This document shows positions 5,214-63,240 of a stretch of DNA of 64,000 bases, piece after piece. Under the pieces are notes generated by a model that worked only from the letters and a program-made list of their open reading frames with translations, had not been told where the DNA came from and did not search any database. Position numbers and translations under genes: made by a program. Each line of letters begins with the position of its first letter. Within the stretch, counting starts at the first letter, position 1. Source of the DNA: Tridacna crocea (taxonomy: Eukaryota > Mollusca > Bivalvia > Cardiida > Cardiidae); contig OX031071.1 in NCBI GenBank assembly GCA_943736015.1, positions 37,356,619 to 37,420,618 of the forward strand, read 5' to 3'.

Positions 5214-5544
5214 TATCAGTAACTTATACTCCGACATCATATTAGGGTAGTTATGTTATGTTCTTAACTTTGTAAATATATATTTTAACCTTGCAAGTTG
5301 TACAAGTTGTAACTAATATATGCATATTGAAAGCAATAGTGTGAATAAATTCAAGAAAGTCATTATTGTGATTGAAATTGTGGAGGGACAGTTCATCTCA
5401 TCATTAGTAATCGTTAATAATAGTGCTTAACGGGGTAAACCCCCCAATAAGAACAGATGAAAAAGTGCAGCTAGAAGATTTTAAAGCATGTTCTGGGACA
5501 TGTGCATTAACCCTATACTCCTATATAAACGTTATCAGGAGAAC

Positions 5545-11572: not shown

Positions 11573-11714
11573 TGTACTAAATGAGAAAATTTAGACTTGT
11601 CCACTTTGAAAGCATTAGTGGTTAATGAATTGAATTTGGGTAACATTATAAGATTTGTGTCTGTACGGGTAGAGAATGTTGAAAGAAAAGAAGAAATTGA
11701 TTGTTAACCCTTTA

Positions 11715-11845
11715 CTCCATAGATACTCATTTCTACACATTGCTTGTAGGAGCCTTTGGAAAACATTGTGGCAAAAGGTGAAATTGCTCATGACGAGCAA
11801 TTTCACATTTTCTCACAATATTTTCTATGCTATGAAAAGGTGTCA
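11715..11845 (+). mobile_element. MITE family 1, alternative-loop subfamily, unit 1
   Basis: The outer stem is that of family 1 ('cctttggaaaacattgtgg' and 'tctcacaatattttc') but the centre is 'gaaattgctcatgacgagca' rather than the usual 'atgctggtaaccagcat'. The same alternative centre is found in the intact element 59,773-60,002 and in the fragment at 63,130-63,240. Confidence 0.7.
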
Positions 11846-12319
11846 TATACCCATAAAAAACAGCTTCATCCTTGCTGTTATTTAGGGTCAATTAGAGATA
11901 CCATGGAAATGCCTTATGGGATAAACCGGTAAAGGGTAAAGAGCTTTCTCTCATTTTCCTGCAATGCTTTCAAAAGTTGTTTTCTTTAGGACACAGGATT
12001 GTATGGTAAAGAGTTAATTTCTTACTCCTTCAACCTTTTTTCAGACTATCCTAAAATATTATCAACTATAAAGCAATGTGTATCAAGGCATACTAGATAA
12101 TAGTTTAGTGACAGTGAAACATTGTGGGAAAGGAATTATTTTTTTGGCAGCAAGCAAATGTTCCGTTTCACATAATGGAACATCCTTTATAACAGTGGGA
12201 TAAAAAAAAAACATGTTTATGAAGTAATTAGAAAGTTTGTATGTTTAACCCTTGACCAAAATATAACATTTTGGATTGATCCCAATTCAAAGCAGTTGAG
12301 GACTGCAATTACAATTTGG

Positions 12320-12495: not shown

Positions 12496-12519
12496 ACGTG
12501 ACACCTTGCACCTGGCATT

Positions 12520-14271
12520 ATGGAAGTGTCTGGTAGAAATCAGACAGCGAGTGACGACACAACAACAGGTGTTCAATGTGATCCTTGTTTATTATTGAAC
12601 AAAAATATAAATGCTAAATCTTACTGTGTGGACTGTGACGAATTTTTCTGTAATAATTGTTGTTTGGTACATAAGATGTCAAAGTTGTCAAGAAATCACA
12701 AATTTTTAAATGGAGATGAAATGCCACAACAAAAACGTGTTTCAACAGAAGAAAATGTCTGTTCTTTACACAAAGGGAAAGTATTGGAGTATTATTGTAA
12801 GATGCATACTAACTTTTTTTGCGGTGTTTGTTTGACTGTTGAACACAAAACTTGTTCTATAGAATACATAGACGATATTGTCCAAGACTTTGACACAAGT
12901 CCAGAGTACAGATCTTTAACAGAGAAAATTACAAGTCTTCTACAGCAGCTAAAAGATATAAAGAAAACTTCAACAAGACACAGTCAAGACTTAGAAACAG
13001 TGTGCACCCAGTTTGTAGCAGATGTGAAATCATTTCGTACAGAAATCAACGAACTTCTAGATTCCATGGAAACAACAATTTTGAAGGAAGCCCAGGATGT
13101 GAAGGAGTTTGATACAAAAGCTTCTCAAACTGTGTCTACAGTGTGTGATACAATGACCACTGACATAAATGAAATTGTCTCTAACTTAGACAAACATAAA
13201 CAATACAAACAACAGCGACAGTTTGTGATCTCTGCAAAGAAAGCTGAAACCCTGATTTCTGAATTAGAAAAGAAAATAGCTGATATATACAGTCAAAACA
13301 AAATTAGAAATTATAAATTTCACAAAAATGAGGAAATGCTACATTTACTTCAATCTATGTGCAATCTTGGTACATTAGAGGATAGAGAGAAGGAGGGAGG
13401 AAAAACAGAAATGGCGAGAAAGGAAAAAGAAAACATAAAGCTTGTCAACAAAGATCCCAAATCTGTTACAGCCAGATATGTAAGAAAAATCAATGTTAAA
13501 AATTCAAAAGATAAAAGTTACTGTTATATTACAGGCAGTGTAATGATAGATCCACACAGAATAGTTCTAACAGATTATTGGAACTTCAGTGTAAAACTTG
13601 TAAATGTTGACAGTAAGAGTATTCTATCTTATCTAAAACTTTCCACACAACCATGGGATGTTACGTGTATTGATAAAAGTCAGCTTGTCATTACATGTCA
13701 CAATAAATTAGTGTTTGTAAATGTTGGACAGACTTTGACTGTAAACAAAGACCTTCAAGTTAATGGAGAATGTAGAGGAATTATTTTTAATGATAATCAA
13801 TTATTTGTGTCATTTGATAAACCAGAACCTGCTGTTAAATTAATCAGTCTACATGGAGAAATATTGAAAACATTTTCTACAGACCAAAATGGACAACCTC
13901 TGTTTAAACGTCCCTGGTATATTTGTCTAAGTAATTCCAAGTCTACACTTTTTGTTAGTGTTTGGAAGACAAACAGTGTGACAAGTGTGGATTTACGGGG
14001 TAAAGTTCAAAATATTTACAGAGATAATAACCTGGAGTATCCACTTGGTCTGACTGTAGATAGATATGATAATATTTATATAGCTGGACGTGATTCACAC
14101 AATATACACCAGATATCTACACAATGTAGACCCATACAAATATTACTGGATAAAACACAAGGAATGGTACTTCCACAGTCAGTGTCATATTGTGAAGCAG
14201 AAAACAAACTTTATATCAGTCATGCCAGTGCATCTTACCAAAACGTTTTGTCAGTTTATCAACTACAGTAG
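12520..14271 (+). CDS. TRIM-like protein with two B-boxes, coiled coil and NHL-type beta-propeller (copy 1)
   Basis: A 583-residue uninterrupted frame. Residues 20-60 fit a first B-box-type zinc finger: C20, C23, C36, C39, C44, C47, H51 and H60. Residues 81-112 fit a second B-box: C81, H84, C93, H96, C101, C104, H109 and C112. No RING finger precedes them, so this is a TRIM-like protein without an obvious E3 catalytic domain. Residues about 125-300 are charged and helical in character, consistent with a coiled coil. Residues about 335-583 have NHL-like beta-propeller strands ('PLGLTVDRYDNIYIAGRDS' and similar). Family members usually act in the cytoplasm as oligomeric adaptors in ubiquitin signalling, innate immunity or RNA regulation; the target here is unknown. 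The start is supported by a conserved upstream splice acceptor and by identical N-termini in both copies. About 83% identical to the protein at 42,274. Confidence 0.93.
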   Translation: MEVSGRNQTASDDTTTGVQCDPCLLLNKNINAKSYCVDCDEFFCNNCCLVHKMSKLSRNHKFLNGDEMPQQKRVSTEENVCSLHKGKVLEYYCKMHTNFFCGVCLTVEHKTCSIEYIDDIVQDFDTSPEYRSLTEKITSLLQQLKDIKKTSTRHSQDLETVCTQFVADVKSFRTEINELLDSMETTILKEAQDVKEFDTKASQTVSTVCDTMTTDINEIVSNLDKHKQYKQQRQFVISAKKAETLISELEKKIADIYSQNKIRNYKFHKNEEMLHLLQSMCNLGTLEDREKEGGKTEMARKEKENIKLVNKDPKSVTARYVRKINVKNSKDKSYCYITGSVMIDPHRIVLTDYWNFSVKLVNVDSKSILSYLKLSTQPWDVTCIDKSQLVITCHNKLVFVNVGQTLTVNKDLQVNGECRGIIFNDNQLFVSFDKPEPAVKLISLHGEILKTFSTDQNGQPLFKRPWYICLSNSKSTLFVSVWKTNSVTSVDLRGKVQNIYRDNNLEYPLGLTVDRYDNIYIAGRDSHNIHQISTQCRPIQILLDKTQGMVLPQSVSYCEAENKLYISHASASYQNVLSVYQLQ

Positions 14272-14700: not shown

Positions 14701-14729
14701 AGAAACCATTACTGGTATTTAAACTACAT

Positions 14730-14959
14730 TTAACTCTTTACCAAACCATATAATTTTAGACTCATCCAAATTTAAGGCATTTGTAGATGACAAAATTAAT
14801 ATGACTCAAAAGTTGAAATTTGTTTTGGGAAGGGAAGAAAACGTTATGAGAAATGGCGAAAATGTTGGTTACCAGCATTTTCTCCTTTTCCGACAATGTT
14901 TTCAGAATGTTTCCTTCTCAATTGCGTGAAAACCAGTGATTTGTTTGGGAAACACTTAA
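14730..14959 (-). mobile_element. MITE family 1, intact
   Basis: TTAA at both ends (14,730 and 14,956). Contains 'tagactcatccaaatttaag', the hairpin 'gaaaatgttggttaccagca' with 'ttctccttttccgacaatg', and the right-end 'gtgaaaaccagtgatttg'. Orientation is opposite to the element at 14,394. The paralogues are at 44,486-44,709 and 46,460-46,689. Confidence 0.8.
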
Positions 14960-15551
14960 TTTGTGGTGAGTAACTTACTGCTTTTGATTTGGTCAATTCT
15001 CAAACTCGGTCATTGGGTCAATAGGTAGTAAACCTGGGCAGTAAGTACTCATAAAAACATTGTGGGAAGTAGCATTTTCTCCTTTACCCTCAAATTGTCA
15101 GCACTTCAATGATATTTTTGTCAGCACTGTAATGATAAATCTCTTCTTTGGACCATTATATTACAGCAAAGCAGTAGTAGTAGTAGTGCTTAATTGACTG
15201 CATACATAGATAACATTAATATGAGCCATGCTCTGTGATATGGGGGCTTAAAGCATCTGCAAAAAGTTATGACTCGGTCAGCCTGTGGAGTCTGTGCCAA
15301 CTGACATGGACCAAAAGTTTTTACTGTCGCTCAACTTTCTGGATGTCCGAGGACCAATGTACCTCATAATTAAGTTGAATGTTGAGAAAATGTTACCAAT
15401 TTGGATCAATGATTATGTGGATTTTGAGAAAATATGGCTAATTTGAATCATTTGGGTTATATGATTGCTTGTCTGGTGTTATGCATCATTGAGATCCAGT
15501 AAGCCCCCTTTTGCCAGAACACGGCTCATATACTTTTGTTCATTGCGTAGA

Positions 15552-17493
15552 CACGGTGGATATATGTACACCGGATATAGCCCTCAAATTGAATAAAAAT
15601 AACTCTGTCTTCTGTGACTGCAAGTACGAGATTTCCTAGTATTTCTTAACAACAGATTTTAAATTACAATTGCCTTGTCAAGCCTTATTCTATGATGTTT
15701 ATAGATGGTTGAGTCAACATCGAATGCAGTTTTTAGCCTTGGAAATTCTGAAAAAAATGTCAAAAAAGTCGGCTGCTCACGACGGATTTCGGAGATTTCT
15801 AGAAACAATTCATCTGCAAAGCCGATTCTTTTGACTATACAAAAATCTGAGTCGACAAATTTCTTGATATTTTAGTCTAATTTCATGACATGATTACAAT
15901 TTTGCTGTATCGGGTAAAAATTGCCAGAAAATACAAGGTTTTTGTCGACAATGGTGTACCGAGGATAGCTGTTATTTTGAAAGAACTTTACGGAGGATAG
16001 TATTGTACTGTACCGGGGATAGTATGATAATGCACCAGGGATAGTAATGTCTCATTCTATAGTGTCATGTGTGAACTCTATATTGATAAACCAATGTAAA
16101 TGTAATTATGCTACACTTAGATTGGTCTCTTCTCGGGTTGAAAGGTTTTTATGCATTTGATATTTCATTATCTTGTTCATGCTACATTTTCTCGTATTCA
16201 GATGCATTATACAAATGCTTCTATGGATATTTCGGGCATATCTTTACCTGGTGATTCAATGCAGAGAACGACTGCTAAATCTTTTGTATATAAAAAAATG
16301 TACTTAATCGACAAACGCGAACTTGGCACGACAGTTTAGGTATCACTTTGCACTCCATCAAAATTTCCGATCCTCATGTTGCAAGTTTTAAAGAAGGTAT
16401 TTACCACAAATTCGTCTTTGACACACATCCATTTCTTCTACTAATCAAGATGCATTTAAAGAGATTAGCCAAGAGCTCACCTGCTTATATAAACTGCAGC
16501 CTGACATTATCAAGTAAAGATGCGCTAGCTTACCAAAAGGGAAAGCATGATGCTGCTGCTTGCGTATGCGACAGGTGCAGGAAAGCATATATTCATGGCA
16601 GTAATCCTGTAGTGGTCATAAAGCCTATTTTAAACAGATAAGCAAAGCAATACTAGCAGCATTTATGTAGAATGCCCAAATCAGATAGGTGTGTGAAGGA
16701 TGGATGCCACCCAGCGGAAGATAATGCCTGTGAATACTATGTTACATATATTTTGATACCGTTTGTTAGCTCTCCGGTACGAAAATACCTCCTCGTTAAA
16801 GGTAAACTGGAAGATCACATTGCCTTCCATAACTTTTGTATACATGTACAATATTTTGTATGTGCAGCAGGAAGCTAAGAATATGTTCTTCTATCTAGTC
16901 TGGAGTGTATCTATCATCTGATTGCAGCCTATATTGTCAAGAACAGAAAAACTTGGTGAGTTATGAACATCCAATACTAACATGTCTGTATTCCTTACTT
17001 GTTATTTCAGAATATCTGACATATTTGGCTTTCTGGGTGGCATATATCATCAAATAACTAGTCATGAGCAAGAAATTACAATTCGCTCAGTAGCATCTCA
17101 CACTACTATCCTCAGAGCAGAAATTTCTGAAATAAAACTATCCTCGGTACAGCAAGGAACTATCTTTATGTTTACACGTAGGCTTCAGAAATTCAACCAA
17201 ATTCCCTGTTCTGATAATATCCCATTATTTTGGAAAGTCTGGTCAAAAATTTCCGTGAGCATGACTTTCGGAAGACAAATTAACTTCGCTATAGAACTAT
17301 TGTTTGGTAATTCATCAACAGCAAAGTACTGATTAACCATTTAGCTTATCAAATCATTAACATATGACAGACGAATGTTACAAACACTGGTTTAAACGTA
17401 CAAATTCTTATCTGTGGTGCAAGCAATAATTCCTTCATGTGTAAACATTTACTCACTTTGGTTGCTATATCCGGTGTACGTGTACCCAGCGTG
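15552..17493. mobile_element. 1,942-bp DNA transposon relic with CAC...GTG ends and 5-bp TSD (Transib/RAG-like candidate)
   Basis: Terminal inverted repeats of 29 bp match at 25 positions. The left begins CACGGTGG and the right, read inward, CACGCTGG; both end in 'GTACACCGGATATAG'. The element is bounded by GTAGA (15,547-15,551 and 17,494-17,498). Unit 2 has the empty site near 47,420 with a single GTAGA, proving a 5-bp target duplication. Inside, a 12-bp motif resembling 'taccgaggatag' occurs four times at 15,957-16,045 and twice inverted at 17,104-17,150, typical of subterminal transposase sites. Open frames inside (16,151-16,339, 16,348-16,641, 16,672-16,878, 16,982-17,332) are short and not recognisable, so the copy is non-autonomous or badly decayed. 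CAC ends plus a 5-bp duplication are characteristic of Transib and RAG-like transposons; family membership is inference. Confidence 0.75.
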
Positions 17494-17554
17494 GTAGAGT
17501 AAGACCAAACTGCAGAGAACATGCAGTTTGATCTTAGACATATAGATAGTTGTA

Positions 17555-17740
17555 TGAAATTGAAATGTTTTGTCTGTTAATTGCCTGCATGGCTCAAATA
17601 CTTTTGTTCATTGTGTAGAAAAAAACCAGACTGCGAGGAACATGTAGTTTGATCTTAGACATATGTAGATCTAAATGTACAGAATAGAAAATGTTTTGTC
17701 GGTTTATCAACTGCAGTAGAAAACAACACAAACTATCAGC
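17555..17740 (+). pseudogene. Relic of a TRIM gene 3' end (unit 1)
   Basis: Bases from about 17,690 to 17,732 repeat the last codons, stop and first 3' UTR bases of the TRIM genes: 'tatcaactgcagtagaaaac' against 'tatcaactacagtagaaaac' in gene 1. Over 40-odd bases only about three differ. A weaker version precedes it at about 17,570-17,590. The unit 2 equivalents are at 47,490-47,520 and 47,608-47,655. No upstream coding remains. Confidence 0.6.
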
Positions 17741-31057: not shown

Positions 31058-31506
31058 CGGAGCCGTAGGAACAGGGGAGGCGGGGGGGGGGAGGCCACTC
31101 CAATAATTTGATCACCAATAAAATGACTGTGTCAGTATTTCGCTGAATATTGCTAGACAATCATCGTGCATAAAGAGAATAAAATAATAGAAAATTTCAA
31201 ACGATTTAAAATAGTTCTAAACAAACGCCGGCGAGCCATAGAATTTTTTCTTTTACTTTTGTTATCTGACAGACACCAAACAATTTCTGACGTCACATTT
31301 CATTCCGTGTGAGTTCTGCTTTATTTTTTTCTCCCAATCTCATAATTCACCACATTGTTGAACAAATTTCCTCCTTTTTCGGTCATTAGTATTAGTAGAT
31401 GGGTTATTTCTCACTGCATAATCAAACGCAATATATGTAAAATCAGGACAAGCCGGTTCTAAAATGATGTTGGCCCCCCCAATCCAAAATTGCTTCCTAC
31501 GGGTCT
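31058..31506. mobile_element. 449-bp TIR element, unit 2 only
   Basis: GTACTC lies on both sides (31,052-31,057 and 31,507-31,512). Unit 1 has one 'tgtactctttgccggttc' (4,349), the empty site. The ends share an imperfect inverted repeat: 'gagccgtaggaa' on the left, 'ttcctacgggtc' on the right, each next to a G-rich or C-rich run ('ggcggggggggg' and 'ggcccccccaatcc'). No coding capacity. Superfamily not assigned; a 6-bp duplication is the best reading. Confidence 0.7.
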
Positions 31507-31689
31507 GTACTCTTTGGCGGTTCTTGCTCACGCAAAATTATGACGAAACCTAGTTCGAACATAATTGAAATGACGTGCATGTAAATTGCGGCTCACTCGA
31601 TCGTTCGTGTGCAATATAAGTGAAATAACTCAAACTTTCTCATTCTGCTCTGGTACTGCTTATTTCCCTGACCGTTGCATCTTTCTTAA

Positions 31690-32209
31690 AGGTGGGTATG
31701 TAGAATTTTCACATCACACCAAATAAAAAAAAATATCATTGAAATTTATATGAATAAACAATACAAATCATCAATAATTAAGAATCATAAAATTACAAAA
31801 AAAAATGATGGTATTCCCTTAAAAGGCAATATAGCTTCTTAAGCTTTTTTAGATTTCGCGCCAAAAATCAATAAGGCATTGTGGGAATGTCACGTGACTA
31901 ATAACGCTTATATTCCATTACATAACAAACATGTAATAATTATTTTCCATAATGTCTTCTACGTCGGACGGATGTTTGAAACTTTGTCTGTGTTTTCCTG
32001 TATTTAAATTAGAGAAATGATAAACTAAAAATAGAACGTGTCTCCCGTTGGTATCAACCTGGTCCGTAATAAATTTCTAATTTCTTGTGTTATCGGATGG
32101 TTTTCGACTTCTGGGGTTTTATGAAGGCAAATTAAAAGGCTATGGGAGTATAAAGATGATTTTTTTGCATTTTTGTAATTTTTTTGTCCCAAAATCTGAA
32201 GGGCCACCT
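31690..32209 (+). mobile_element. MITE family 2 (about 520 bp), unit 2
   Basis: Ends 'aggtgggtatg' and 'gaagggccacct', flanked by TTAA on the left and GTAA on the right. Unit 1 has the uninterrupted 'ccttcttaaatgggaaag' (4,525). Internal landmarks are 'tagatttcgcgccaaaaatc' and 'gcattgtgggaatgtcacgt'. Non-coding. Confidence 0.85.
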
Positions 32210-32679
32210 GTAAATGGGAAACCTAAAGCTATTATAGATTTCGTGCACGCAGCTTGAAACCGAAAACAATTTTGCTCTATAGATATTGCCTTTTATTTTT
32301 TTTTTATCTTACTTTAGACAATTTTATCAAAGCGATAAAAGAGATAGTTGAGCGACAATTTAGTAAGCCATTCATGAATAAACAACTTGTCATGAACCGT
32401 TATCACTGCATTTATCTTGTAGTAGTTTTGTGCTTGTGTATATATAAGATTTCGTGTAAAAGTTTTTGCATTCGAGTATGTGAATGGGACCTGTCTAATG
32501 CAGCCGTAATTGTGGATATTTTGACATTTAACGAAGTGTGAGAGGGAAGGGGTGGGTGGCCTTGGTGCACTGTTAAATTATGGAGGATGCTGAGTTTTTA
32601 TATATTTTTTTGGTCATGACCTTTTGAAACTGACCGTATATATTACTTATCCTTTTATCACACAATCACGACTTTTTAC

Positions 32680-32869: not shown

Positions 32870-32960
32870 ATTTTAGGGTAGTTATGTTATGATCTTAACT
32901 TTTAGGGCAGTCATATTATGATCTTAACTTTTAGGGTAGTTATATTATGATATTAACTGA
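32870..32960 (+). repeat. Short tandem repeat, about 36-bp unit
   Basis: Three units of 'ttttagggtagttatgttat' plus 'gatcttaac'. Unit 1 has only one unit in this place (near 5,238). Confidence 0.75.
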
Positions 32961-34108: not shown

Positions 34109-34896
34109 GAGTGTAGGACAAAACCCCCCTAGGACAAAACCCCCCTAGGATAAAACCCCCATGGACAAACCCCCCCCAGGACAAAACCCCCATAGGGTAA
34201 AAAAACCCTAGGACAAAACCCCCATCATATATAAAAAGCATATAAATTTGAGAAAGCACACATAATTTGCAAACAGTTTTAAAGTATTCAAAACAAGTAT
34301 GTTTGATTTAAGGAAAAAATCTAACATGAAAGGCAAAAAATGATTTAGATATTATCTTATTTTAATTTGTAACTCAAGCTTGTTGATAATTTCTATTGAT
34401 ATATGAACACCTATGCAGACTTGGGTAAGACAGGTGTTGAGAGGGGATTAAGACACCTGATTTGCAAGTTTACACCTGTCATATTCACTAATATTTAGTA
34501 GTAGATTTGAACATATAAAAGCACCAAATAAGAAAAAAAAATCCTTTGATTAATATATAAATGATTTTTTCCATTGTATGATTGCATTTATGATTTATTA
34601 TGAATTTATTATGAATGTATTAAGAAAAAAACACATTTTTGGTCATAAAGAAAAAATTTAAGAAAAAAAAATCGTATCAAATCAATTTAACTTATACAAA
34701 AACATTATTTTTTACAACCCCCACAAGTATTTAAAGCAGTAAATTTTATTCAACTTTAAAATTATTGTGCGAAAAGAATCATGGGGTTTTTGTCCACTTT
34801 TCAGTTAAGGGTATGGGAGTTTTGTCCAGGGGTGTTTTGTCCATGGGGGTTTTGTCCTAGGGGGATTTTGTCCTCGGGGGGTTTTGTCCGTAACCC
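34109..34896. mobile_element. 788-bp foldback element with tandem GGACAAAACCCCC ends
   Basis: Left end 34,113-34,225 has about six tandem copies of 'ggacaaaacccccctag' with small variations; right end 34,785-34,893 has the complementary 'gggggttttgtcc' series. The 8-bp GGTTGAAT flanks both sides (34,101-34,108 and 34,897-34,904). The middle (34,230-34,780) is AT-rich and non-coding. Inverted terminal arrays and an 8-bp duplication suggest a foldback-type non-autonomous DNA element, with hAT-type target size. Confidence 0.8.
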
Positions 34897-34984
34897 GGTT
34901 GAATAATCACACATAAAAATAGGAAAAGTCGAATGCAGTTATATTGATGTTACCCCCCCCCCCAGTTTTTACAACACTAAAATT

Positions 34985-35410
34985 TTCATTGACTCTTTAC
35001 GAAACAGAAATTTGAGACTTGCCCAAATTGTAAGCTTTTGCAGATAGCAATTCGAATGTGTATTGAAAATGAAATTTTCTGTAGGAAGGATAGCAAAGGA
35101 AATGGAGAAAAGGTTGGTTACTAGAACTTTATCCCTTTTCAACAACATTTTTAAAACCTATACATGTATTTCTAAGGGTCATAAAAAGCTTGAGATATGG
35201 GTTTTAAATGGTTACCCTTTTCACCCGACGACAACACTTTGGACTCTTCCAGATACTTAGCATATGGAGACGATAGAATAAACGTGGGTCAAATGGTTGT
35301 AATTGTCTTTGAAAAAGTAAAAAAAAAAGAAAAAAACTATTGTTGAAACAGGAGAAAATGCTTGTTGCAAGCCCTTCCTTTTTTCCTTAAATATTTTCTC
35401 TCACACTTAA
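34985..35410. mobile_element. Two adjacent degenerate MITE family 1 copies
   Basis: The first (34,985-35,225) has 'cattgactctttacgaaac', 'agaaaaggttggttactaga', and 'atttctaagggtcataaaaa'. The second (35,240-35,410) has 'gtggagacgatag'-like and 'acaggagaaaatgcttgttg' parts. Both lie within the 3.5-kb element. Confidence 0.55.
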
Positions 35411-35775
35411 AAAATGTATTTTTCACAGATATTTCTGAGCTACATATCGATTACTTTTTTGTTAGGAGGGTGGAGTGTTAAGGTTGAGGAAATGAGACAA
35501 GTAACAGACAGTGAGACAAATCAGCACGTCTGCCCCCTTTTTTTCCGGGTCGCTCGAAATACTTTGGCAAAAAGGTTACATAACTGTCCAAGGACAGTCC
35601 ATTTACTGATATGAAAGCACTATTATCAAACATCCTTGTTGCACTTTCAGGTCTGTACCTATTGAAGAATAAATTCATGTTATAGATATGAAACAAAAGA
35701 AACATGGCTTCAGATTAAATTTCAGACCATCCATAACTTCTTCACAAAATATTTATTCAAGCTTCATTTTGAGTA

Positions 35776-35992
35776 TCTAACCCTTTACCGAACAACAAAA
35801 TTTTTAGACTGGTCCAAATTGAAAGAAAAAAAAAAAAAATTCAAAATTGAAATTTGTTTCCAGCAGGGTAGAAAACATTGTGGGAAAAGGAGAAAATGCT
35901 GGTCACCAGCATTTTCTTCATTTCCAAGAATGTTTTCAAAATGCTTCTATCTCAGGGTCGTAAAAACCAGGGATTGTTTGGTAAAGGGTTAA
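35776..35992 (-). mobile_element. MITE family 1, best-preserved ends
   Basis: Left end 'taaccctttaccgaacaa' and right end 'tgtttggtaaagggttaa' are inverted repeats. The centre is 'ggagaaaatgctggtcacca' with its complement. A good reference for the family's structure: TTAA, CCCTTTACC terminus, asymmetric shoulders, central hairpin. Confidence 0.85.
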
Positions 35993-36636
35993 GAAAATCT
36001 AATGAAATCTTACTAAAAAAATAGGTGAAGGGTTAACTCGGTGTTCCTTTGATCTCAATATCGCACTGCAGGGTGGGTGACCTTTAGAACAGCTGTAATG
36101 TACTTGCTTCTTACAGATAACACACACGTGTCACATTAAATTGATTCTTCTTATCTTTTGTTTCATATCACTTTACCCCTTTAATGATCATTAATAGACA
36201 GGATTATGAATTTTAAACAGGTTTCAGAGGGTAAGTTCGTTCTTAGTCTCTACATGCCCTTTATTTTAATACGATCTCTTTAAATGCATATTTTGTCTGT
36301 TTACGATTATTTTTTCAAAGCAATATCACGAAATATGTTTGAATTATGTTAGAATTGATTTCCTCTAGATTTCTTGACATGCCATTTTCTTTTTAGTTAT
36401 GAATTTGTCCAAATTTAAAGGAATTGCGAACGTGACATACGGCATTTATTATTGAAATAATGCTTTGTTTGTCCGGTGTCACGTGATATTTCTGGTGCGC
36501 CGCTTACGATAAAATGGAAATATCGCTTATATCAAATCTAATTGGCAAATCGTCTATTGTGGAGGTGCTTAATGGGGTAAACCCCCATTAAAAACAGATG
36601 AAATCAGGATTAAAAAGTGCCGCTAGAAGTTTTTAA

Positions 36637-37166
36637 AGGTGGCCCTTCAGATTTTGGGATGACAGTTTTACAAGAATATAAAAGAAATCATCCTTATACT
36701 CCAAAAGCCTAATAATTTTCATTCATAAAACCCCAGTAGTCGAAACCCATCCGACAACATGAGAAATAAGAGATTTACTATAGCCCACGTCAACACTGAC
36801 GGGAAACACGGTCTATTTTTACATGAGCAACTCGCCCATATACACGCCCGAAATACACAGACGAAGTTTCAAACAGGACGTCTGAAGAAGACATATTTGT
36901 TATGTTATGGACTTTCAGAGCCGTAGTCATGTGCTAGTCACTTAACATTCCCACAATGCTTTTTTTAAATTTTTGGCGTGAAATCTAAAAATAGTGTAAG
37001 AGGCTACTTAGCCGTTTAAGGGAATTCCATCGATTTTTTTTTTTTTTTTTTTTTGTAATTTTATGATTCTTAATCATTTATGATTTGTATTAATTTTTTA
37101 TATGAATTTCAGTCATATATATATTTTCTTAATTTTGTGGAATGTGAGAATTCTAGATACCCACCT
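36637..37166 (-). mobile_element. MITE family 2 (530 bp), unit 2, inverted
   Basis: Exactly flanked by TTAA on both sides (36,633-36,636 and 37,167-37,170). Starts 'aggtggcccttcag' and ends 'gatacccacct'. Unit 1 has the empty site 'gaagattttaaagcatgttc' (5,475). Opposite orientation to the copy at 31,690. Confidence 0.88.
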
Positions 37167-37228
37167 TTAAAGCAGTTCTGGGACATGTATGAGCATCAAC
37201 CCTCTATTCCTATATGAATATATAGTAT

Positions 37229-37310
37229 CAGGAAAACTCGTACCCTGGAGACCTCGTACCCTTGAAAACTTGTACCCCAATCTTAAGGGTACGAGTTCTC
37301 CAGAGAAGAT
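37229..37310. repeat. TACGAGTTCTC repeat cluster, unit 2
   Basis: Counterpart of 5,545-5,616: 'ctcgtaccctggagacctcg' followed by the inverted 'gggtacgagttctccagaga'. Confidence 0.75.
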
Positions 37311-37879
37311 GTTAAGTTACATGTAGTTTACCAGTATCATGTCAACTTTTTTTTTGCCGTTATTGTGATGTAATTTTGATTGATGTTTGATGTTGATTTG
37401 TGTAAGAACAGTCTAGGAATCAGTATTTGATTGGATTAGATATTTGTTAAATGGAAGGAATTAATAAAATGAACACAGAATTAATCAAATTTTCACACCT
37501 GGTGAAAAGGCAAATTTCCTGAGCAAAGAGAGCAAGAAAGGTATGATTTTCACACTGATAAATTTAGTGTAATATAATTGCAATATTCAATATTGAACCC
37601 GTAGTTCATTTAACGCTAGAATTGAAACAGATAGTAAAGAATAAGATCAATATGCAAAAGATGAAGTCTGAGCTTGGATTTACACCATCAAGATTCTGAG
37701 CCAAACCTTTTAGAAAAAATATTTCCTGAATTTTAATGAGTCTTCGATGAAGTCACCTGTATACTTTGGGCACCAAAAGAGTTAAGCACATAGGATAATG
37801 ATTGGAAAAGTCAGTGACATCATTTGTCCACAACAAAAATGCCTCTGTAGAATCGCTTGTAAGTCGAAAATTTCATTTA

Positions 37880-42249: not shown

Positions 42250-42273
42250 ACGTGACATCTTGCACCTGGTATA

Positions 42274-44022
42274 ATGGAAGTGTCTGGGCGAAATCAGACA
42301 GGGAGTGGCAACACAACAATATGTGTTCAATGTGATCCTTGTTTAATATTGAAGAAAAATATAAATGCTAAACATTACTGTGTGGACTGTGAGGAATTTT
42401 TCTGTGACAATTGTTCTTCTGCTCATAAACTGTTTAAATTATCAAGAAATCACAAGTTATTATCGGGAAATGAGATGCCTTCACAGAAACTTACTTCAGC
42501 ACGGGAAAATGTCTGTTCTAAACACAAAGGGAAAAATTTGGAGTACTATTGCAAGATGCATAAAAACTTTTTTTGCGGTGTTTGTTTGACTGTTGAACAC
42601 AAAACTTGTTCTATAGAATACATAGACGATATTGCGCAAAATTTTGAAACAAGTCCAGAGTACAGATCAATAACAGAGAAAATGACAAGTCTTCTACAGC
42701 AGTTAAAAGATATAAAGAAAACTTCCACAAGACACAGCCAAGACTTACAAACAGTGCACGCCAAGTTTGTATCAAGTGTGAAATCCTTCCGTACAGAAAT
42801 CAACAACCTTCTAGATTCCATGGAAACAACCATTTTGAAGGAAGCCCAGGATATGAAGGAGTTTGATACAAAAGCTACTCAAACTGTGTCTAGAGCGTGT
42901 GATACATTGACCACTGACATCAATGAAATTGTCTCTAACTTAGACAAACATAAACAATACAAACAGCAGCGACAGTTGGCGATTTCTGCAAAGAAAACTG
43001 AAACTCTGATTTCTGACATAGAAAAGAAAATGGCAGACATATCCAGTCAAAACAAAATTAGAAATTATAAATTTCACAAAAATAAGGAAATTCTACATTT
43101 ACTTCAATCTATGTGCAATCTTGGTACATTATTGGATAGAGAGAAGGAGGGAGGAAAAACAGAGATGGAGAGAAAAGAGAAAGAAAACGTAAAGCTGGTC
43201 AACAAAGATCCCAAATCTGTTAAAGCCAGTTATGTAGGACAAATCAATGTTAAACATTCAGAAGATAAACGTGACTGTTGGATTACAGGCAGTGTAATGA
43301 TAGATCCATACAAAATAGTTCTAATAGATTGTTACAACTACAGTGTAAAACTTGTAAATGTTGACAGTAACAGTATTCTATCTTATCTAAAACTTTCCAC
43401 ACAACCATGGGATGTTACTTGTATTGATAAAAGTCAGCTTGTCATTACATGTTATAATAAATTAGTTTTTGTAAATGTTGGACAGACTTTGATTGTAAAC
43501 AAAGAACTTCAAGTTAATGGAGACTGTAATGGAATTATTTTTAATGATAATCAATTATTTGTGTCATTTTATAAACCAGAACCTGCTGTTAAATTAATCA
43601 GTCTACATGGAGAAATATTGAGAACATTTTCTACAGACCAAAATGGACAACGTCTGTTTAAATGTCCCTGGTATATTTGTCTTAGTAAATCCAAGTCTAC
43701 ACTATTTGTTAGTGACTGTTGGACAAACACTGTGACAAGTGTGGATTTCAAGGGTAAAGTTCAAAATGTTTACAGAGATACTAACCTGGAGTGGCCATCT
43801 GGTCTGACTGTAGATAGATATGATAATATTTATATAGCTGGACGTGACTCACACAACATACACCAGATATCTACACAGTGTAGACCCATACAAATATTAC
43901 TGGATCAAACACAAGGAATGGAAGTTCCACAGTCAGTGACGTATTGTGAAACAGAAGACAAACTTTATATCAGCCATGCTAGTATATCTAAACTAAATGT
44001 TTTGTCAGTTTATCAACTATAG
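42274..44022 (+). CDS. TRIM-like protein with two B-boxes, coiled coil and NHL-type beta-propeller (copy 2)
   Basis: A 582-residue uninterrupted frame, aligned without gaps to the protein at 12,520 at about 83% identity by my count. All B-box ligands are kept: C20, C23, C36, C39, C44, C47, H51, H60 and C81, H84, C93, H96, C101, C104, H109, C112. No RING. Residues about 125-300 look coiled-coil and 335-582 form the propeller. About a quarter of the differences fall in residues 1-85; others cluster at propeller positions (353-356, 481-483, 504-509). At 481 this copy has D, as expected in an NHL-type turn ('LFVSDCWTN'), while copy 1 has V. The final glutamine codon of copy 1 (cag) is a stop (tag) here, so the protein is one residue shorter. 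Likely a cytoplasmic adaptor; partner unknown. Confidence 0.93.
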   Translation: MEVSGRNQTGSGNTTICVQCDPCLILKKNINAKHYCVDCEEFFCDNCSSAHKLFKLSRNHKLLSGNEMPSQKLTSARENVCSKHKGKNLEYYCKMHKNFFCGVCLTVEHKTCSIEYIDDIAQNFETSPEYRSITEKMTSLLQQLKDIKKTSTRHSQDLQTVHAKFVSSVKSFRTEINNLLDSMETTILKEAQDMKEFDTKATQTVSRACDTLTTDINEIVSNLDKHKQYKQQRQLAISAKKTETLISDIEKKMADISSQNKIRNYKFHKNKEILHLLQSMCNLGTLLDREKEGGKTEMERKEKENVKLVNKDPKSVKASYVGQINVKHSEDKRDCWITGSVMIDPYKIVLIDCYNYSVKLVNVDSNSILSYLKLSTQPWDVTCIDKSQLVITCYNKLVFVNVGQTLIVNKELQVNGDCNGIIFNDNQLFVSFYKPEPAVKLISLHGEILRTFSTDQNGQRLFKCPWYICLSKSKSTLFVSDCWTNTVTSVDFKGKVQNVYRDTNLEWPSGLTVDRYDNIYIAGRDSHNIHQISTQCRPIQILLDQTQGMEVPQSVTYCETEDKLYISHASISKLNVLSVYQL

Positions 44023-45571: not shown

Positions 45572-46432
45572 CACAGGAATTTGACATTCTATAACCAAAA
45601 TAAATGATAAAATATGTAAAAAAATATCTCCCCTATATAATAAAAACACAAGGAATGCAACGTCTCGATTGCTGGCGCTAGCACCCGACAGCCTTTCCCA
45701 ACCAAAATCACCCACGAAACAAACATTGATCATAATCTCCTTTAGCCTAGCGATAGACAACAAATTAAAGTACCTGCGACACCCAGCGATACCTCAGTAG
45801 ACACCTTTCAACAGGAGATATCCGTCATGTTTTACAACTTTATCGGTCAATTTTGATTTGTCTGAGACACCATTCGCTGACGTCACAAGAAGAGCAAGGA
45901 AGCATATTTTCGTATTACTTATTACTATTATTTTTTTCGTTTTTAAAATATTTATGGACATCATACGATACTAAAGATTTTTCTAGAAGTAACTAACAAA
46001 AGTATTTGAGCGCATTCCTTTTTAAAGAAAAGATATTTGACTTTTGTGAATAGGGAAATCCCCATGAAGTGAGGTAACTCTATAAACTTAAGCCGTATTG
46101 GACCGTTCACGGGAATCACGTGACGTCAGGGAATGGTGTCTCAGACAAATCAAAATTGACCGATAAAGTTGTAAAACATGACGGATATCTCCGGTTGAAA
46201 GGTGTCTAGTGAGGTATCGCCGGATGTCGCAGGTACTTTAATTTGTTGTCTATCGCTAGGCTATAGGAGATTATGATCAATATGTGTTTCGTGGGTGATT
46301 TTTGTTGGGAAAGGCTGTCGGGTGCTAGCGCCAGCAGTCGAGACGTTGCATTCCTTGTGTTTATATTATATATAGAGAGATTTTTTTCATGTGTTATCAT
46401 TTATTTTGGTCATTGAATGTCAAATTCCTGTG
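45572..46432. mobile_element. 861-bp foldback element with 315-bp inverted arms and a 7-bp TSD
   Basis: Left arm about 45,572-45,886 starts 'cacaggaatttgacatt'; right arm about 46,118-46,432 ends 'aatgtcaaattcctgtg'. The arms pair nearly perfectly out to 'ctgacgtcac' / 'gtgacgtcag'. CATAGAC flanks both ends (45,565-45,571 and 46,433-46,439). The homologous sites at 14,693 and 44,456 read 'tatcatagacagaaa' without the element. The 230-base middle is AT-rich and non-coding. The open frames across it (45,437-45,763 and 46,206-46,400, minus) are shadows of the inverted arms. A 7-bp duplication does not point to one common superfamily. Confidence 0.88.
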
Positions 46433-47265: not shown

Positions 47266-47489
47266 CAAGGACCAGTGTACATCATAGTTATGTCGGATGT
47301 TGAGAAAATATGGCTAATTTGAATCATTTGGGTTATGTGAATTCTTTTCTGGTGTCATGCATCATGGAGATGCAGTAAGTCCCCTTTTGCCAGAGCTTGG
47401 CTTATATATTTTCGTTCATTGTGTAGATTAAGACCAGACTGTGCAGAAGATGTAGTTTGATCTTAGACATAAATAGTTGTATGAAATGG

Positions 47490-48775: not shown

Positions 48776-48989
48776 CTTTAACAAATTACACAGTTTTAGA
48801 ACTTTCCAAATTAAAAGCAGACAAAGAGAAAAATGACTCAAAAATTGAACTTTGACTTTAGGAGAGCAGAAAACACTGTGGAAAAAGGAGAAAAGGCTGG
48901 TTACCAGCATTTTCTCCTATTCGAACAATCTTTCCAGAAGCGTTCTTCCTATGGGTCATAAAACCAGGGATTGTCTGGTAACAGGTTAA
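48776..48989 (-). mobile_element. MITE family 1 (unit 2)
   Basis: Paralogue of 18,763-19,002. The hairpin is 'ggagaaaaggctggttacca' with 'gcattttctcctattc'; one arm carries a G for T change. Confidence 0.78.
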
Positions 48990-49059
48990 TACATCTCTGT
49001 AACATAACATACCAGGCAAGTAATTATAATTATTCTAATCATGGATCCATAAAATCCAT

Positions 49060-49340
49060 TTTGTCTACTGACTTACTGAATCATAAAGTACACTGGTCCT
49101 GTGGCATGCAGACAATTGAATAATAAAATCCATTTTGTCTACTGACTTACTGAATCATAAAGTACACTGGTCCTGTGGCATGCAGACAATTGAACAATAG
49201 AATCCATTTTGTCAAATAAGTTAATGAATCATTAGGTACACTGGTCCTTTGTGGTATAGCAGACAATTGAACAATAGAATCCATTTTGTCAAATAAGTTA
49301 ATGAATCATAAAGTACACTGGTCCTTTGGCATGCAGACAA
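49060..49340 (+). repeat. Tandem repeat, about 78-bp unit, expanded in unit 2
   Basis: Four units of 'aaaatccattttgtctactg', 'acttactgaatcataaagta', 'cactggtcctgtggcatgca' and 'gacaattgaa'. Unit 1 has one unit (19,045-19,115). Confidence 0.85.
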
Positions 49341-49904
49341 TTGAACCATAGCAGACTGCAAAGGATGACATGGATGGCTACTTTTTGAAGATGCATTAAG
49401 CTCCTTTTTTACAGAGAATTGACATTTTTTGCATATTTGTTAATACCTGCTGGACAGTTGTTACATCTAGGAATAATCCATAGCAGTGTCCTATTAAAGA
49501 TCTACACTGTCATGAATAAACCATGACATACTGATATACATGCAGGTCTTTATGAAGAAATATAAACTTCCGCGATTTAATGTCGCTGTCTACTGTCCAG
49601 AACATTACCCCATTCTTCATTATAAACATTACCGCATTCTTCATTATGAAGTTTTCCTGCGCAGTCAGACATTGTCAAGATCCGACAGCACCTACTGTCC
49701 AGTCTAACCGTGGATCATAGCATATCATGGTTATTTTTTTACTAATGAATCGGGCTTTGAACTCTCAATATCTTGATTTTCATTTTCTTTGGCAAATTAG
49801 AGTTCATGTTACTCAGGAATTGGTAATGTTCTTGTGAAACAATTTTAGACTGATCATTATTATTATTATTGCTGTATTTTCAGATGAGGGTAGATGTTTG
49901 AGAA

Positions 49905-50395
49905 GATGACATGTATAAGTGTTGAGAAGAAATGAAGAGAAATTTTACCCATAATACCTTGGAAAACTATGTGTAGAACAGGAAAACATATTGGTGAGGA
50001 GAAATGAAGAGAAATTCTACCCGTGATACAGTGGAAAACATGTGAAACAGGACAACATATTGGTGAGGATTAATGAGGAGAAATTCTACCCGTGATACCT
50101 CGGCAAAACATGTGTAAAACAGGACAACGTATAGGTGACGAGAAATGAGGAGAAATTCTACCCATGATACCTCGGAAAAACATGTGTGCAATAGGATAAC
50201 ATATTGGTGAGGAGAAACGAGGAGAAATTCTACCCGTTATACCTTGGAAAATATGTGTGAAACGGCACAACATATTGGTGAGGAAATATGAGAAGAAATT
50301 CCACCCATGATACATTGGAAAAACATTTGTAATATTGTAACATAGGACAACTTATTGTTAAGGAGAAAGGAGAAATTCTACCCTTGGAAAAACAT
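49905..50395 (+). repeat. Minisatellite, about 70-73-bp unit, unit 2
   Basis: Paralogue of 19,680-20,110 with about one extra unit. Confidence 0.9.
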
Positions 50396-56903: not shown

Positions 56904-57235
56904 CTGGGGGCATAAAATATGGGGCCAGAGGTATAGAGATTGTGAGAAACAATCAAGGGAAATAACTGAGTGACATTTCATGTCTAATATGTAGGTCCTG
57001 AGGAGCATGAAAGTGCACCTGTAAACTTTCTTGGAGAAAACCATGACCTTTGTAAATCAGTTTAAACTGGGGGCATAAAATATGGGGCCAGAGGTATAGA
57101 GATTGTGAGAAATAATCAAAGGAAATAACTGAGTGACTTTTCATGTCTTATATGTAGGTCCTTAGGAGCATGAAAATGCACCTGTAAACTTTCTTGGAGA
57201 AAACCATGATCTTTGTAATTCAGTTTTTGTCCAAG
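56904..57235 (+). repeat. Direct duplication of about 165 bp at the unit 2 / unit 3 junction
   Basis: 'aaactgggggcataaaatat' to 'atgacctttgtaaatcagtt' occurs twice in tandem (about 56,904-57,063 and 57,065-57,225). The second copy continues into the unit start sequence ('tttttgtccaagatatt'). The single homologue at the unit 1/2 junction is 28,325-28,490. Confidence 0.85.
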
Positions 57236-57309
57236 ATATTGATAATTTACATAATGGAGGGTACATTTGATACTTTATTAAACAATTCAGATTTGTAATT
57301 GGAGTAGTT

Positions 57310-57640
57310 CTTAAATATCGCCGTCCCTGGCGGGATTTGAACCCTGGACCCCCTGGTCCCAAGGCGAAGACTCTACCACGTCCCTACAAAAGCCAGCTCA
57401 ATAGCAAAGCAGTATAAGTGTCCACCTATACCATTTCAAGCGAAACATTTACATCTATCTGTGGGATAGACCAGTATACAACATACTAGCCAACCACCTG
57501 AAGATTCGTCCACGAATCCTTCAATCACTTTTATTTTATCACAGTTCTCACAAATCACCGTCCTTATGGGGGTTAGAACCCTGGACCTTCAGGTCTCAAG
57601 ACGAACACTCTACCACGTCCCTACAAAAGCTAGCTCTTTG
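57310..57640 (-). repeat. Two tRNA-derived repeat heads in tandem (minus strand)
   Basis: On the minus strand, 57,415-57,310 and 57,640-57,545 both read 'tagggacgtggtagagt', then an anticodon-like region and a B-box-like 'ccagggttcaaatcccgcc' / 'ccagggttctaacccccat'. The acceptor stem ends are not complementary (both read 'agggacg'), so these are tRNA-derived SINE heads, not functional tRNAs. Absent from units 1 and 2. Confidence 0.6.
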
Positions 57641-57914
57641 TCAAGCTGTATACTCTTGAGGAAGAGGATTTTTTGAAAACATGGCGGGAGAACAATAATG
57701 CTGGATTGAAAAATGCTGGATTGAAAACTTTTCTTATTTTAACTTTTTTACACCTGGTTTAGTCAATCAGAAGTTCTCTTACTTTCACATTGCCAAAATT
57801 TGAAGAATAAGACTAAGACTTTTTTTAAAGAATGGTTCGTGAAATACAGACCCAGGGCAACTTTGAGCGGACATGGGCAACCAGATGTGGTGACGATAAA
57901 TAAACGGAAAATTA

Positions 57915-58115
57915 ATCAAATCTCGAGTTTTAACGACAGTGAAAGAGAAGGGTATCGATGACGTTGTACGAAAAGAAGACATACACAGTTGTAAAAAATC
58001 ATTTTGTTCCTTTCCTACAATATTGTCTACCCTATCTAAGACAGACATCATCATTTCATTTGCAATTAGTTTAGCGTCTGCACGGGTTTTCAATCTGGTC
58101 TAGTTCCGAAATTTT
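57915..58115 (+). mobile_element. Diverged MITE family 1 copy (unit 3)
   Basis: Homologue of 2,820-3,015: 'gatgacgttgtacgaaaaga', 'tcctttcctacaatattgtc', 'gcgtctgcacgggttttcaa'. Confidence 0.55.
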
Positions 58116-58694
58116 TGTTATTTGATAAAGAATCAAGCTGCGCTATTCAAGAGCTTTAATAGAGATACTGACTCTCTCAGTGAGTGGAGAAATGGAACTT
58201 CAAAGCAATTTTACGATACCATATTTTAAAAGAAATTGGGCAGTGAAGATCAAGATAAAGAATCAAGCTGCGCTATTCAAGAGCTTTAATAGAAAAATTG
58301 ACTTTCTCAGTCAGTGGAAAAATGCAATTTTCTGTAAAAAAAAAGAAAAAAAAGGACAGCGAAAATTAAAGATCAGACTGCATGTTTAGTTCAGTCTGAC
58401 CTTGATTGACATTGTCCGCAAAAGGCAGCCTGATCCATATCATAGATGTACATGGATAAGCGAACTGTTGCCATGATATAACAATAAACTCTGACAAAAA
58501 GGGGTTAAATGCATTATACTAATCAAGTCAGAAAATAAATTCATAGGCCTTCATAGAAAAAAGTGTAAAAGAAAACCAAATGAATCATTGGGTAGAAAGA
58601 CCCTAAACACACACAAAAAAGTGAACCAGATCAACCCGTGCTGACATCGACAAATGGTGGTGACGATAAATAAAAGTAAAATTACTGGTAATCA

Positions 58695-58890
58695 AACCCC
58701 GAGTTTTAACGACCAAGAAAGAGAAGGGTTTTGATGACGTTGTAGGATAAGGAGAAACACTCAGTGGTAACAAGTATTTTGCTCCTTTTCCACAATATTT
58801 TCTACCGTATTTAAGCCAGAAATCACCATGTGAACTGCATTTAAGTAGTCGTCTGCAAATGTTTTCAATCGTTTTTTATTTGACAAAGAT
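58695..58890 (+). mobile_element. Diverged MITE family 1 copy (unit 3)
   Basis: Homologue of 3,530-3,715, with 'gctccttttccacaatattt' and 'gtcgtctgcaaatgttttca'. Confidence 0.55.
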
Positions 58891-59060
58891 TCAAGCTGCG
58901 CTTTACAAGGCTTAAACAAAACATTTGACTTTCTCAGTCAGTGGGAAAATGGAACCTCATTTTCATTTTTTTTTATTTGACAAATATTCAAGCTGCGCTA
59001 TACAAGGCTTAAACAAAACATTTGACTTTCTCAGTCAGTGGGAAAATGGAAGCTCAAAGC
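58885..59060 (+). repeat. Short direct duplication, about 80 bp, unit 3
   Basis: 'tttatttgacaaagattcaa' / 'gctgcgctttacaaggctta' / 'aacaaaacatttgactttct' occurs twice (from about 58,874 and from about 58,972). Confidence 0.85.
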
Positions 59061-59269
59061 TATTTTGTGACAGTATATTTTAAAAATCGACACTGATGAT
59101 CAATTCAAGATCGGACCACGTCTTGAGCAGTCATATCTTGAAAAACATTGTCCGCAAAAGGCAGTCTGATCAAGGACCTACATGTACATGGATAAGCGAA
59201 GTGTTGCCGTGAAATGACAGAAATCATGTTGAACGCGTGTAAAAGGTCGATCAATCAATCAATTAAGCA

Positions 59270-59565
59270 ATTGCCCAACTTCGATAGCTTAGTCAGAAGC
59301 GCACGGGACTTAAGAGCAGTGGATGGTTTGATCCCCGCTTGGCCAGTTGCTTTCCGAGCATTGTTGATAGTTATTGCGACGGTATTCATTCCTCTCTCAT
59401 TGCCGATCGTTGTACTGACGTTGGTTATGTCATGAAGCAGCCAATGGTTGGAAAGACAATTATGCCATGTCTTGATAAGAGAAACTCCAGAAAAGCATGG
59501 ATATTTGCAATGGCCACTGCGATATAACTGAAATAAAAGTGAAAACGGGGTTAAACAACGTACAA
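59270..59565 (+). repeat. tRNA-derived SINE, unit 3 copy (longest)
   Basis: A-box-like 'cgatagcttagtcagaagcg' and B-box 'ggtttgatccc', then the full body ('tgtcatgaagcagccaatgg') and the tail 'gtgaaaacggggttaaacaa'. The best copy for building a consensus. Confidence 0.72.
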
Positions 59566-59772
59566 TTAATCGTATAATACTATTTAATACTCTTTACCAC
59601 TTCTTGCTCGCACAATGTACGACGGAACCTAGTTCAAACATAGTTGAAGTGACTTACATGTATGTAAAATTGCAGCTCAGTTGAGTGCCTGCGCGTGATC
59701 CAAGGGAAATAACTGAAATCATGTCCTCAATCTGTTTTGGTACTGCTTATTTCCCTTATTGTTAGATATGTC

Positions 59773-60002
59773 TTAAAACTTTCCCAAATGACAAATTTTA
59801 GACTGTCCCAAACTCAAAGTATTTGCAGATGACAATTTTGAATTCAATGAGAATGGCAGAAAGTTTTCCGATAGGCTAGAAAAAACACTGTGGGAAAAGG
59901 AGAAATTGCTCGTTACGAGCAATTTCTCCTTTTCCCACGGTGTTTTCTAAAGACTTGTACTGCAGACACGTAAAAACCAGGGCTTGTTTGGGAAAGAGTT
60001 AA
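59773..60002 (-). mobile_element. MITE family 1, alternative-loop subfamily, intact (unit 3)
   Basis: TTAA at 59,773 and 59,999. The hairpin is 'ggagaaattgctcgttacga' with the perfect complement to 'ctccttttcccac'. The shoulder blocks ('tagactgtcccaaactcaaa', 'tatttgcagatgacaa') are those of family 1. It sits in the same TTAA that carries a family 2 MITE in unit 2 and is empty in unit 1. Confidence 0.85.
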
Positions 60003-60349
60003 ACGGGAAAACGCAAAGCTAGTACAAATTCCGTCCAGGCAATTTGAAACTGAAAACAAAGTTGTTCTAGAAACATTGTCTTTCTTTTTTTTCTGGACTT
60101 TAGACAATTTAATCAAAGAGATGAAAGACATAGTTGAGCAACAATTTAGTGACCTGTATAGGGCCCATTCATGAATAGACACATAATCATGAACTACTAA
60201 CATTGCATAAGTTTTATCTTGTTGTAGATTTAATGCTTGTGTATATCTACGATTTCGCGTAAAAGTACTTGTATTCAAAGTATGTGAATTAGACCTCTGT
60301 AATGCAGCCGTTATTGTATGTCTTTTGACTTTTAACGAAGTAATAATAA

Positions 60350-61716: not shown

Positions 61717-62230
61717 AGGTGGGTATATAGGTTTTTCACATCACACAAAATTAAATAATATATATATCACTGAAATTAATATGAAAAAACAATACGAATT
61801 ATCAATAATTAAGAATCATAATATTACAAAAAAATAGGGGTGGTATTTCCTTAATAGGCTACGCTGCCCATTAGGCTATTTTTAGATTTCGCGCAAAAAA
61901 AAAAGCATTGTGGGAATGTTAATTTTAAATAAGTGACTGGCATGTGACTAATAACGCTTAAATTCCATAAGAAACATGTATTTATTTTCCATAATGTCTT
62001 CTTCGGACGCTATGTTTGAAGCTTCGTCTGTGTACTTTCCAGTATGTAAATGAGCAAATTGTAAAAAGAGACAGTGTGTCCCGTCGGTGTCAACCTTGGC
62101 TGTAGTAAATCTCTTATTTCTCTTGTTTTCGGATGGTTTTTGACTGCTGGGGTTTAATGAAAGAAAATTATACGGCTTTGGGATTTTTTTTTTTTGTAAA
62201 TTTTTTGTCCCAAAATCTGAAGGGCCTCCT
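61717..62230 (+). mobile_element. MITE family 2 (514 bp)
   Basis: Starts after TTAA with 'aggtgggtatatagg' and ends 'gaagggcctcct'; the right TTAA has decayed to GTAG. It shares 'tagatttcgcgcaaaaaa' and 'cttcttcggacgctatg' with the other copies. Confidence 0.85.
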
Positions 62231-63129: not shown

Positions 63130-63240
63130 ATTAGATTTTATACAGCATACAAAGTGTTGTGGCAAAGGTTGAAATTGCTTGTAACGAGGAGTTCCACCTT
63201 TTGCCACAAAAATTTCAAAGATTCTTCAGTACAACTGCAT
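63130..63240. mobile_element. MITE family 1 core, alternative-loop subfamily
   Basis: 'aaagtgttgtggcaaaggtt', 'gaaattgcttgtaacgagga', 'ccaccttttgccaca' form a partly decayed hairpin. It lies inside the anonymous minus-strand frame 63,138-63,452. Confidence 0.6.

Follow-up and report, generated by a model that had tools for sequence, protein, structure and literature searches.

The window, that is, the whole stretch of 64,000 nucleotides analysed here, consists of about three diverged tandem units (approximately 2300-28400, 28400-57100 and 57150-64000), whose colinear pieces are mostly around 70-90% identical and serve as internal presence/absence controls for insertions. Two paralogous intronless open frames, one per tandem unit, lie at 12502-14268 (589 aa) and 42256-44019 (588 aa); in a Pfam search the former shows a B-box zinc finger (E 1.2e-7) and a coiled coil, with no RING match, and it resembles TRIM-type chains in the PDB, an indication of an animal host. 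Many copies of a roughly 220-bp repeat, one of them at 14729-14960, are dispersed over both strands throughout the window. Some stretches are present in one unit and missing from another. These include a 228-bp stretch at 11708-11935, missing from unit 2, with ends CCCTTTAC..GTAAAGGG and a TTAA/TAAA flank, which we take to resemble a piggyBac-type MITE, and two stretches of unit 2 missing from unit 1, at 31058-31505 and 31691-32210, whose flanks overlap by 7 and 4 bp, respectively.

The element at 15552-17493

The first unit hosts an element of 1942 bp, hereafter E1 (15552-17493, no strand assigned), recognised by its terminal inverted repeats (TIRs), a flanking repeat and two empty sites. According to arm pairing and a four-arm alignment, the left TIR (15552-15597, plus strand) begins CACGGTGG and the right TIR (17448-17493, minus strand) begins CACGCTGG. 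These repeats are imperfect, with 25 of the 29 outer bases identical, and 37 of 46 (80%) over a longer span. The left heptamer, CACGGTG, is one base away from the V(D)J heptamer CACAGTG, and the right one, CACGCTG, is two bases away. Both ends are adjoined by a perfect direct repeat, GTAGA, read from the letters at 15547-15551 and 17494-17498 (plus strand). The borders, the CAC-starting ends, the flanking GTAGA and the single-base departure of the left heptamer are all as an earlier sequence-only reading of this DNA had described them.

In the paralogous unit some 30 kb away, the site is empty and GTAGA is present once, at 47423-47427 (plus strand). In blastn, the match of the left flank ends at 47427 and that of the right flank starts at 47423, an overlap of exactly 5 bp that corresponds to GTAGA, and an alignment of the joined flanks gives the same single-GTAGA site, bearing out the earlier claim that unit 2 has one GTAGA at this element-free place. 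A second empty site, also with a single GTAGA and not mentioned in the earlier reading, was located by alignment and by reading the letters at 17615-17619 (plus strand), in a local 121-bp tandem copy of the flank. E1 is thus confirmed as a real DNA transposon with a 5-bp target site duplication (TSD), proven by two clean empty sites. Most simply, it inserted after both duplications, that of the unit and that of the 121-bp tandem, and made its 5-bp target duplication at that moment.

E1 looks non-autonomous. Pfam, searched up to E 1 with its six frames in pieces of at least 15 aa, returned nothing, and a PDB search with the six frames (two of them in part) gave no match up to E 10, in line with the earlier remark that no RAG1/Transib-like frame was seen. 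The longest frame, of 121 aa, was dropped as a gene candidate: frames at least as long turn up in 16 of 300 shuffles, so that its length is no evidence for a gene. The earlier failure to find a clear nonamer was also repeated: candidates at spacers of 11-13 or 22-24 were rejected, as they matched at just 2-5 of the nine positions.

The subterminal regions of E1 carry copies of a 13-base motif, GTACCGAGGATAG, with 0 to 3 mismatches. A motif scan places the left array at 15956-16044 (plus strand), with four copies at 15956, 15988, 16010 and 16032, that is, 405, 437, 459 and 481 bases from the left end (spacings of 32, 22 and 22), and the right array at 17106-17150 (minus strand), with two inverted copies at 17106 and 17138, lying 344 and 376 bases from the right end (spacing of 32). 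Allowing up to three mismatches, these six copies, four direct on the left and two inverted on the right, compare with a mean of 0.22 in shuffles of the element (n=300), which upholds the claim of subterminal repeats near both inner sides. Outside the TIRs, the left and right sides share an exact inverted match of at most 14 nt, a length reached in 2 of 500 shuffles.

A second element with related ends

The main new result is the presence in the window of a second element, E2, related to E1 and with the exact CACAGTG at one end. E2 emerged from a window-wide scan for pairs of inverted ends that are flanked by direct repeats; it spans 3380 bp (60479-63858, no strand assigned) and contains no recognised transposase. 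Its left TIR (60479-60529, plus strand) starts with CACAGTG, identical to the V(D)J heptamer, and its right TIR (63808-63858, minus strand) with CACAGTA, which still reads GTG-ended on the plus strand; the aligned arms are identical at 47 of 51 positions. ATAAC adjoins both ends as a perfect 5-bp repeat (60474-60478 and 63859-63863, plus strand).

As in E1, inverted copies of a subterminal motif are present, here resembling ACTTGCGAGT with 0 to 2 mismatches. On the left (60934-60976, plus strand), ACTTGCGAGT at 60934 and TCTTGGGAGT at 60967 lie 456 and 489 bases from the end with a spacing of 33; on the right (63360-63392, minus strand), the inverted copies TCTTGCGAGT (63360-63369) and ACTTGCGAGT (63383-63392) are spaced by 23 and lie 467 and 490 bases from the end. 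The longest exact subterminal inverted match of E2 is 13 nt (reached in 11 of 500 shuffles). Six exact TIR 9-mers recur subterminally in E2, a number reached in 1 of 500 shuffles. E1 has just one (211 of 500), so that for E1 the idea of a motif copying the TIR block comes down to a gapped resemblance seen by eye.

Pfam searches with 11 open stretches of E2 yielded no transposase, with two unrelated sub-threshold matches only, YneP (E 0.003, 17.7 bits, cut-off 27) and Ribosomal_L36 (E 0.18), and ten pieces searched against the PDB likewise yielded none, the sole match being ribosomal L32 at E 0.9. Nested in E2 is a repeat (61709-62233, plus strand) with other copies at 31682-32212 and 36634-37170; the unit-2 stretch at 31691-32210 mentioned above is this same repeat.

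Inverted counterparts of the E2 flanks occur near 5250 in unit 1 and near 32,880 in unit 2, in both cases without the element. The corresponding sites lie at 5250-5254 and, within a 29-bp tandem array, at 32881-32885 (both minus strand), and base by base both contain ATAACATAACTACCC. These two paralogous sites show E2 to be an insertion. They were rejected as proof of its duplication: both already hold ATAACATAAC, which makes the unit-1 site ambiguous in this respect, so the duplication of ATAAC by E2 is not proven from them, and 5 bp is claimed for E2 because ATAAC abuts its TIRs exactly. Related copies with another duplication length, which the sequence-only reading had named as counting against it, were not found in the window, E2 being the sole related element found and having a 5-bp flanking repeat as well.

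The relationship between both elements is clearest at their ends. In the four-arm alignment, CAC is followed by a similar TA-rich stretch as far as AC at position 18, then by a 9-bp segment that is present in E2 only, and then by ACCGGAT[AC]T[AT]GC; the invariant columns are CAC, TA and ACCGGAT.T.GC, and the gap is a clean 9 bp. The distance from the heptamer to the inner block is thus 11 bases in E1 and 20 in E2, identical at both ends of each, and the window contains CAC[AG][GC]T[GA] with ACCGGAT 5-40 bases further on at the four E1 and E2 ends only. Both elements have their inverted motif copies at roughly 340-490 bp from the ends, and the six spacings (32, 22, 22, 32, 33 and 23 bp) lie near two or three helical turns, which is suggestive only. 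A blastn comparison of E1 with E2 returned no match; it missed even the shared end block, so its sensitivity does not suffice to exclude similarity of the inner parts. As far as their sequences tell, E1 and E2 look like two related families with end blocks at different spacing.

The combination of CAC..GTG ends, a TIR of at least 16/20 and a 5-bp repeat occurs twice in the window, as E1 and E2, against 0.017 times per dinucleotide shuffle (n=60), a lenient control, since shuffling destroys the real repeats of the window too. At the 12/20 level four pairs were observed, E1 and E2 included, against 1.68 expected per shuffle, and the CAC-ended candidates with 5-bp repeats at 34522-37504 and 48874-50033 (TIR 12/20) were set aside as chance level. 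The other CAC..GTG pairs with a TIR of at least 16/20 have repeats of 2 bp (two pairs, one of which, 15569-17476, lies within the E1 TIR arms), 4 bp (one) and 7 bp (one), the last two being located in a foldback-like element at 45572-46432. The arms of this foldback align over 315 columns (295 identical); its ends read CACAGG..CCTGTG, and CATAGAC apparently flanks it as a 7-bp repeat. It has CAC ends, yet not a 5-bp repeat, so in this window such ends do not by themselves identify a superfamily.

Relatives were also sought in viral and prokaryotic collections, whose negatives consequently say little on eukaryotic ones. In the viral contigs, neither the E1 end patterns nor the gapped two-block pattern had any match; the 15-base core had 17, none with CAC 14 bp upstream; the 115-aa frame of E1 had five pattern matches and no relatives; and the E2 end had three, with identical surroundings and the remainder of the TIR absent. 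In the prokaryotic contigs, the gapped pattern matched once in each of five bacterial contigs; with one match apiece and judging by the titles, these were regarded as chance. No autonomous relative of another superfamily was met in the window or in these viral and prokaryotic collections.

Transib, RAG-like and other candidate superfamilies

The ends of Hztransib reportedly begin CACGGTGGAT, like the left end of E1. A 5-bp TSD is given for Transib in PMC8355894, for Hztransib, which has long TIRs and the TSD GCTCG, in PMC1852546, and for non-autonomous Transib MITEs of Helicoverpa in a table of PMC9033116. E1 and E2 share with Transib the symmetric TIRs, the CAC-starting heptamer-like ends (CACGGTG, CACGCTG, CACAGTG and CACAGTA) and the 5-bp length, with GTAGA present twice around E1 and once at each of its two empty sites, and ATAAC twice around E2, the duplication being proven for E1 only. 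Among the superfamilies with published TSD lengths that were compared, Transib fits best.

Unlike Transib, E1 and E2 have AT-rich targets, no transposase seen, subterminal motif arrays and a bipartite end, in which the heptamer and a ACCGGATATWGC block are 11 or 20 bp apart. Transib TIRs are described with symmetric spacers of 20-22 bp between the heptamer and a nonamer-like block (PMC8355894); the inner block of E2 stands at 20, yet it is not A-rich. ProtoRAG, Transib and RAG are reported to favour GC targets (PMC8289069), whereas GTAGA has 2/5 G+C and ATAAC 1/5 (n=2). A brief literature search met no description of subterminal arrays in Transib, and in the literature searched no paper was found that brings Transib together with CACGGTG. 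An ORF-based mollusc survey reports one Transib element only (PMC10294476), resulting in a low prior for Transib if the host is a mollusc.

According to PMC4411706, it is a widespread view that the V(D)J recombination signals (RSS) descend from Transib ends. The left heptamer of E2 is identical to that of these signals, and both E2 arms contain ACCCAAACC, which agrees with the nonamer at 7/9 positions, but with a spacer of 14 instead of 12 or 23; a heptamer with a nonamer at either of these two spacers is found neither in E1 nor in E2. Since 12% of random window stretches contain a nonamer match of at least 7/9 at spacers of 5-44, the E2 nonamer is not significant and provides no evidence for an RSS.

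The heptamer also brings in the RAG-like (RAGL) transposons in the narrow sense, of which E1 and E2 would be non-autonomous members mobilised by a RAG1L-RAG2L pair, as in the pearl oyster. The CAC ends, the 5-bp flanking repeats and the heptamer resemblance, exact at the left end of E2, are indeed shared with the RAGL/ProtoRAG elements of bivalves and amphioxus, and non-autonomous elements have been reported in Pinctada imbricata (PMC7204232), so this kind of thing would not be new. The same source gives the protostome RAGL end consensus as CACTWMCAAACKTYKBB, with AAA at positions 8-10, and here the likeness breaks down: the four arms read GAT, GGT, TAT and TAT at these positions, and they score 8 and 6 (E1) and 6 and 6 (E2) of 17, at or below the chance mean of 8.95 for random sequence after a fixed CAC. 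The E1 and E2 frames searched have no Pfam match to the kelch or RAG1 family, no convergent RAG1L-RAG2L genes were seen by Pfam in these two copies, and no RAG1L or RAG2L sequence was recognised in them. We regard this origin as highly unlikely. With the protostome consensus unmatched, the data support the label "Transib-type" and do not support "RAG-like" when narrowly understood.

Subterminal repeat arrays mark CACTA elements, and both E1 and E2 have inverted subterminal motif arrays along with CAC..GTG ends, so that they resemble EnSpm/CACTA in two respects. The CMCT clade, as outlined in PMC12730594, groups EnSpm, Mirage, Chapaev, Transib and others, mostly with CA..TG ends and with TSDs that range from 2 to 5 bp, and the termini of EnSpm are given there as CAC..GTG. 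Another CMCT lineage (EnSpm/CACTA, Chapaev or an unnamed one), whose duplications happen to be 5 bp long, could be behind both elements, and it would sit well with their AT-rich TSDs. What speaks against it is the length: 3 bp for EnSpm (PMC12730594) and 2-4 bp for CACTA (PMC9033116), whereas E1 has 5 bp at two clean empty sites and the flanking repeat of E2 is also 5. We consider such a lineage unlikely.

Convergence of the CAC ends in a different superfamily (Academ, hAT5, Ginger2, P or an undescribed one) seems less plausible. Ginger2 ends are TGT. Its TSD of 4-5 bp (PMC10045372) means that length alone does not exclude it, and hAT and Academ are second and third by element number in the mollusc survey (PMC10294476), while the foldback of the window, with CACAGG ends and a 7-bp repeat, offers a local case of such ends. 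However, AcademX and AcademH have TSDs of 3-4 and 9-10 bp, respectively (PMC10045372), neither of which is seen in E1, and a heptamer-like CACRGTG with 5 bp in two related elements suits Transib better. Such convergence hardly seems likely at all.

A probable trans-mobilised pair and its possible meaning

We infer that E1 and E2 belong to the Transib/RAG1 branch. They probably represent two related families of non-autonomous cut-and-paste transposons, mobilised in trans by one or more transposases of this branch of the CMCT (EnSpm-Mirage-Chapaev-Transib) clade. The CAC-heptamer ends, the 5-bp duplication of E1 and the 5-bp flanking repeat of E2, the common end blocks and the inverted subterminal motifs argue for it; that Pfam and PDB recognise no transposase in either element and that the duplications are AT-rich argue against it. 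A single transposase, or two closely related ones, would mobilise both elements: its DNA-binding domain would recognise the subterminal copies as well as the ACCGGAT block further in from the heptamer, the enzyme would nick beside CAC to release the element, and strand transfer would be staggered by 5 bp. The Transib/RAG-like interpretation first proposed from the sequence stands as far as it holds E1 to be transposase-mobilised, with CAC-heptamer ends and a 5-bp TSD, to which a related element with CACAGTG is now added; its narrow ProtoRAG/RAGL part fails on the end consensus.

A rather unlikely variant would place E1 and E2 in a separate Transib-like lineage, combining RAG-type heptamer ends and 5-bp duplications with a two-block end, helically phased subterminal arrays and AT-rich targets. 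Between the families of such a lineage, the spacer would differ by roughly one turn of the helix (11 versus 20 bp), and the lineage would join a CACTA-like end architecture to a RAG1-type chemistry.

For a mollusc host, the presence of two such non-autonomous, related families would suggest that it also has an autonomous Transib-type element, of which no description was found in the literature searched. The pair itself constitutes a natural comparison, in which both recognition blocks are common and their spacing differs by 9 bp. The separate lineage, if true, would illustrate how the RSS logic of a heptamer and a second block at a distance can accommodate a change of spacing without loss of function.
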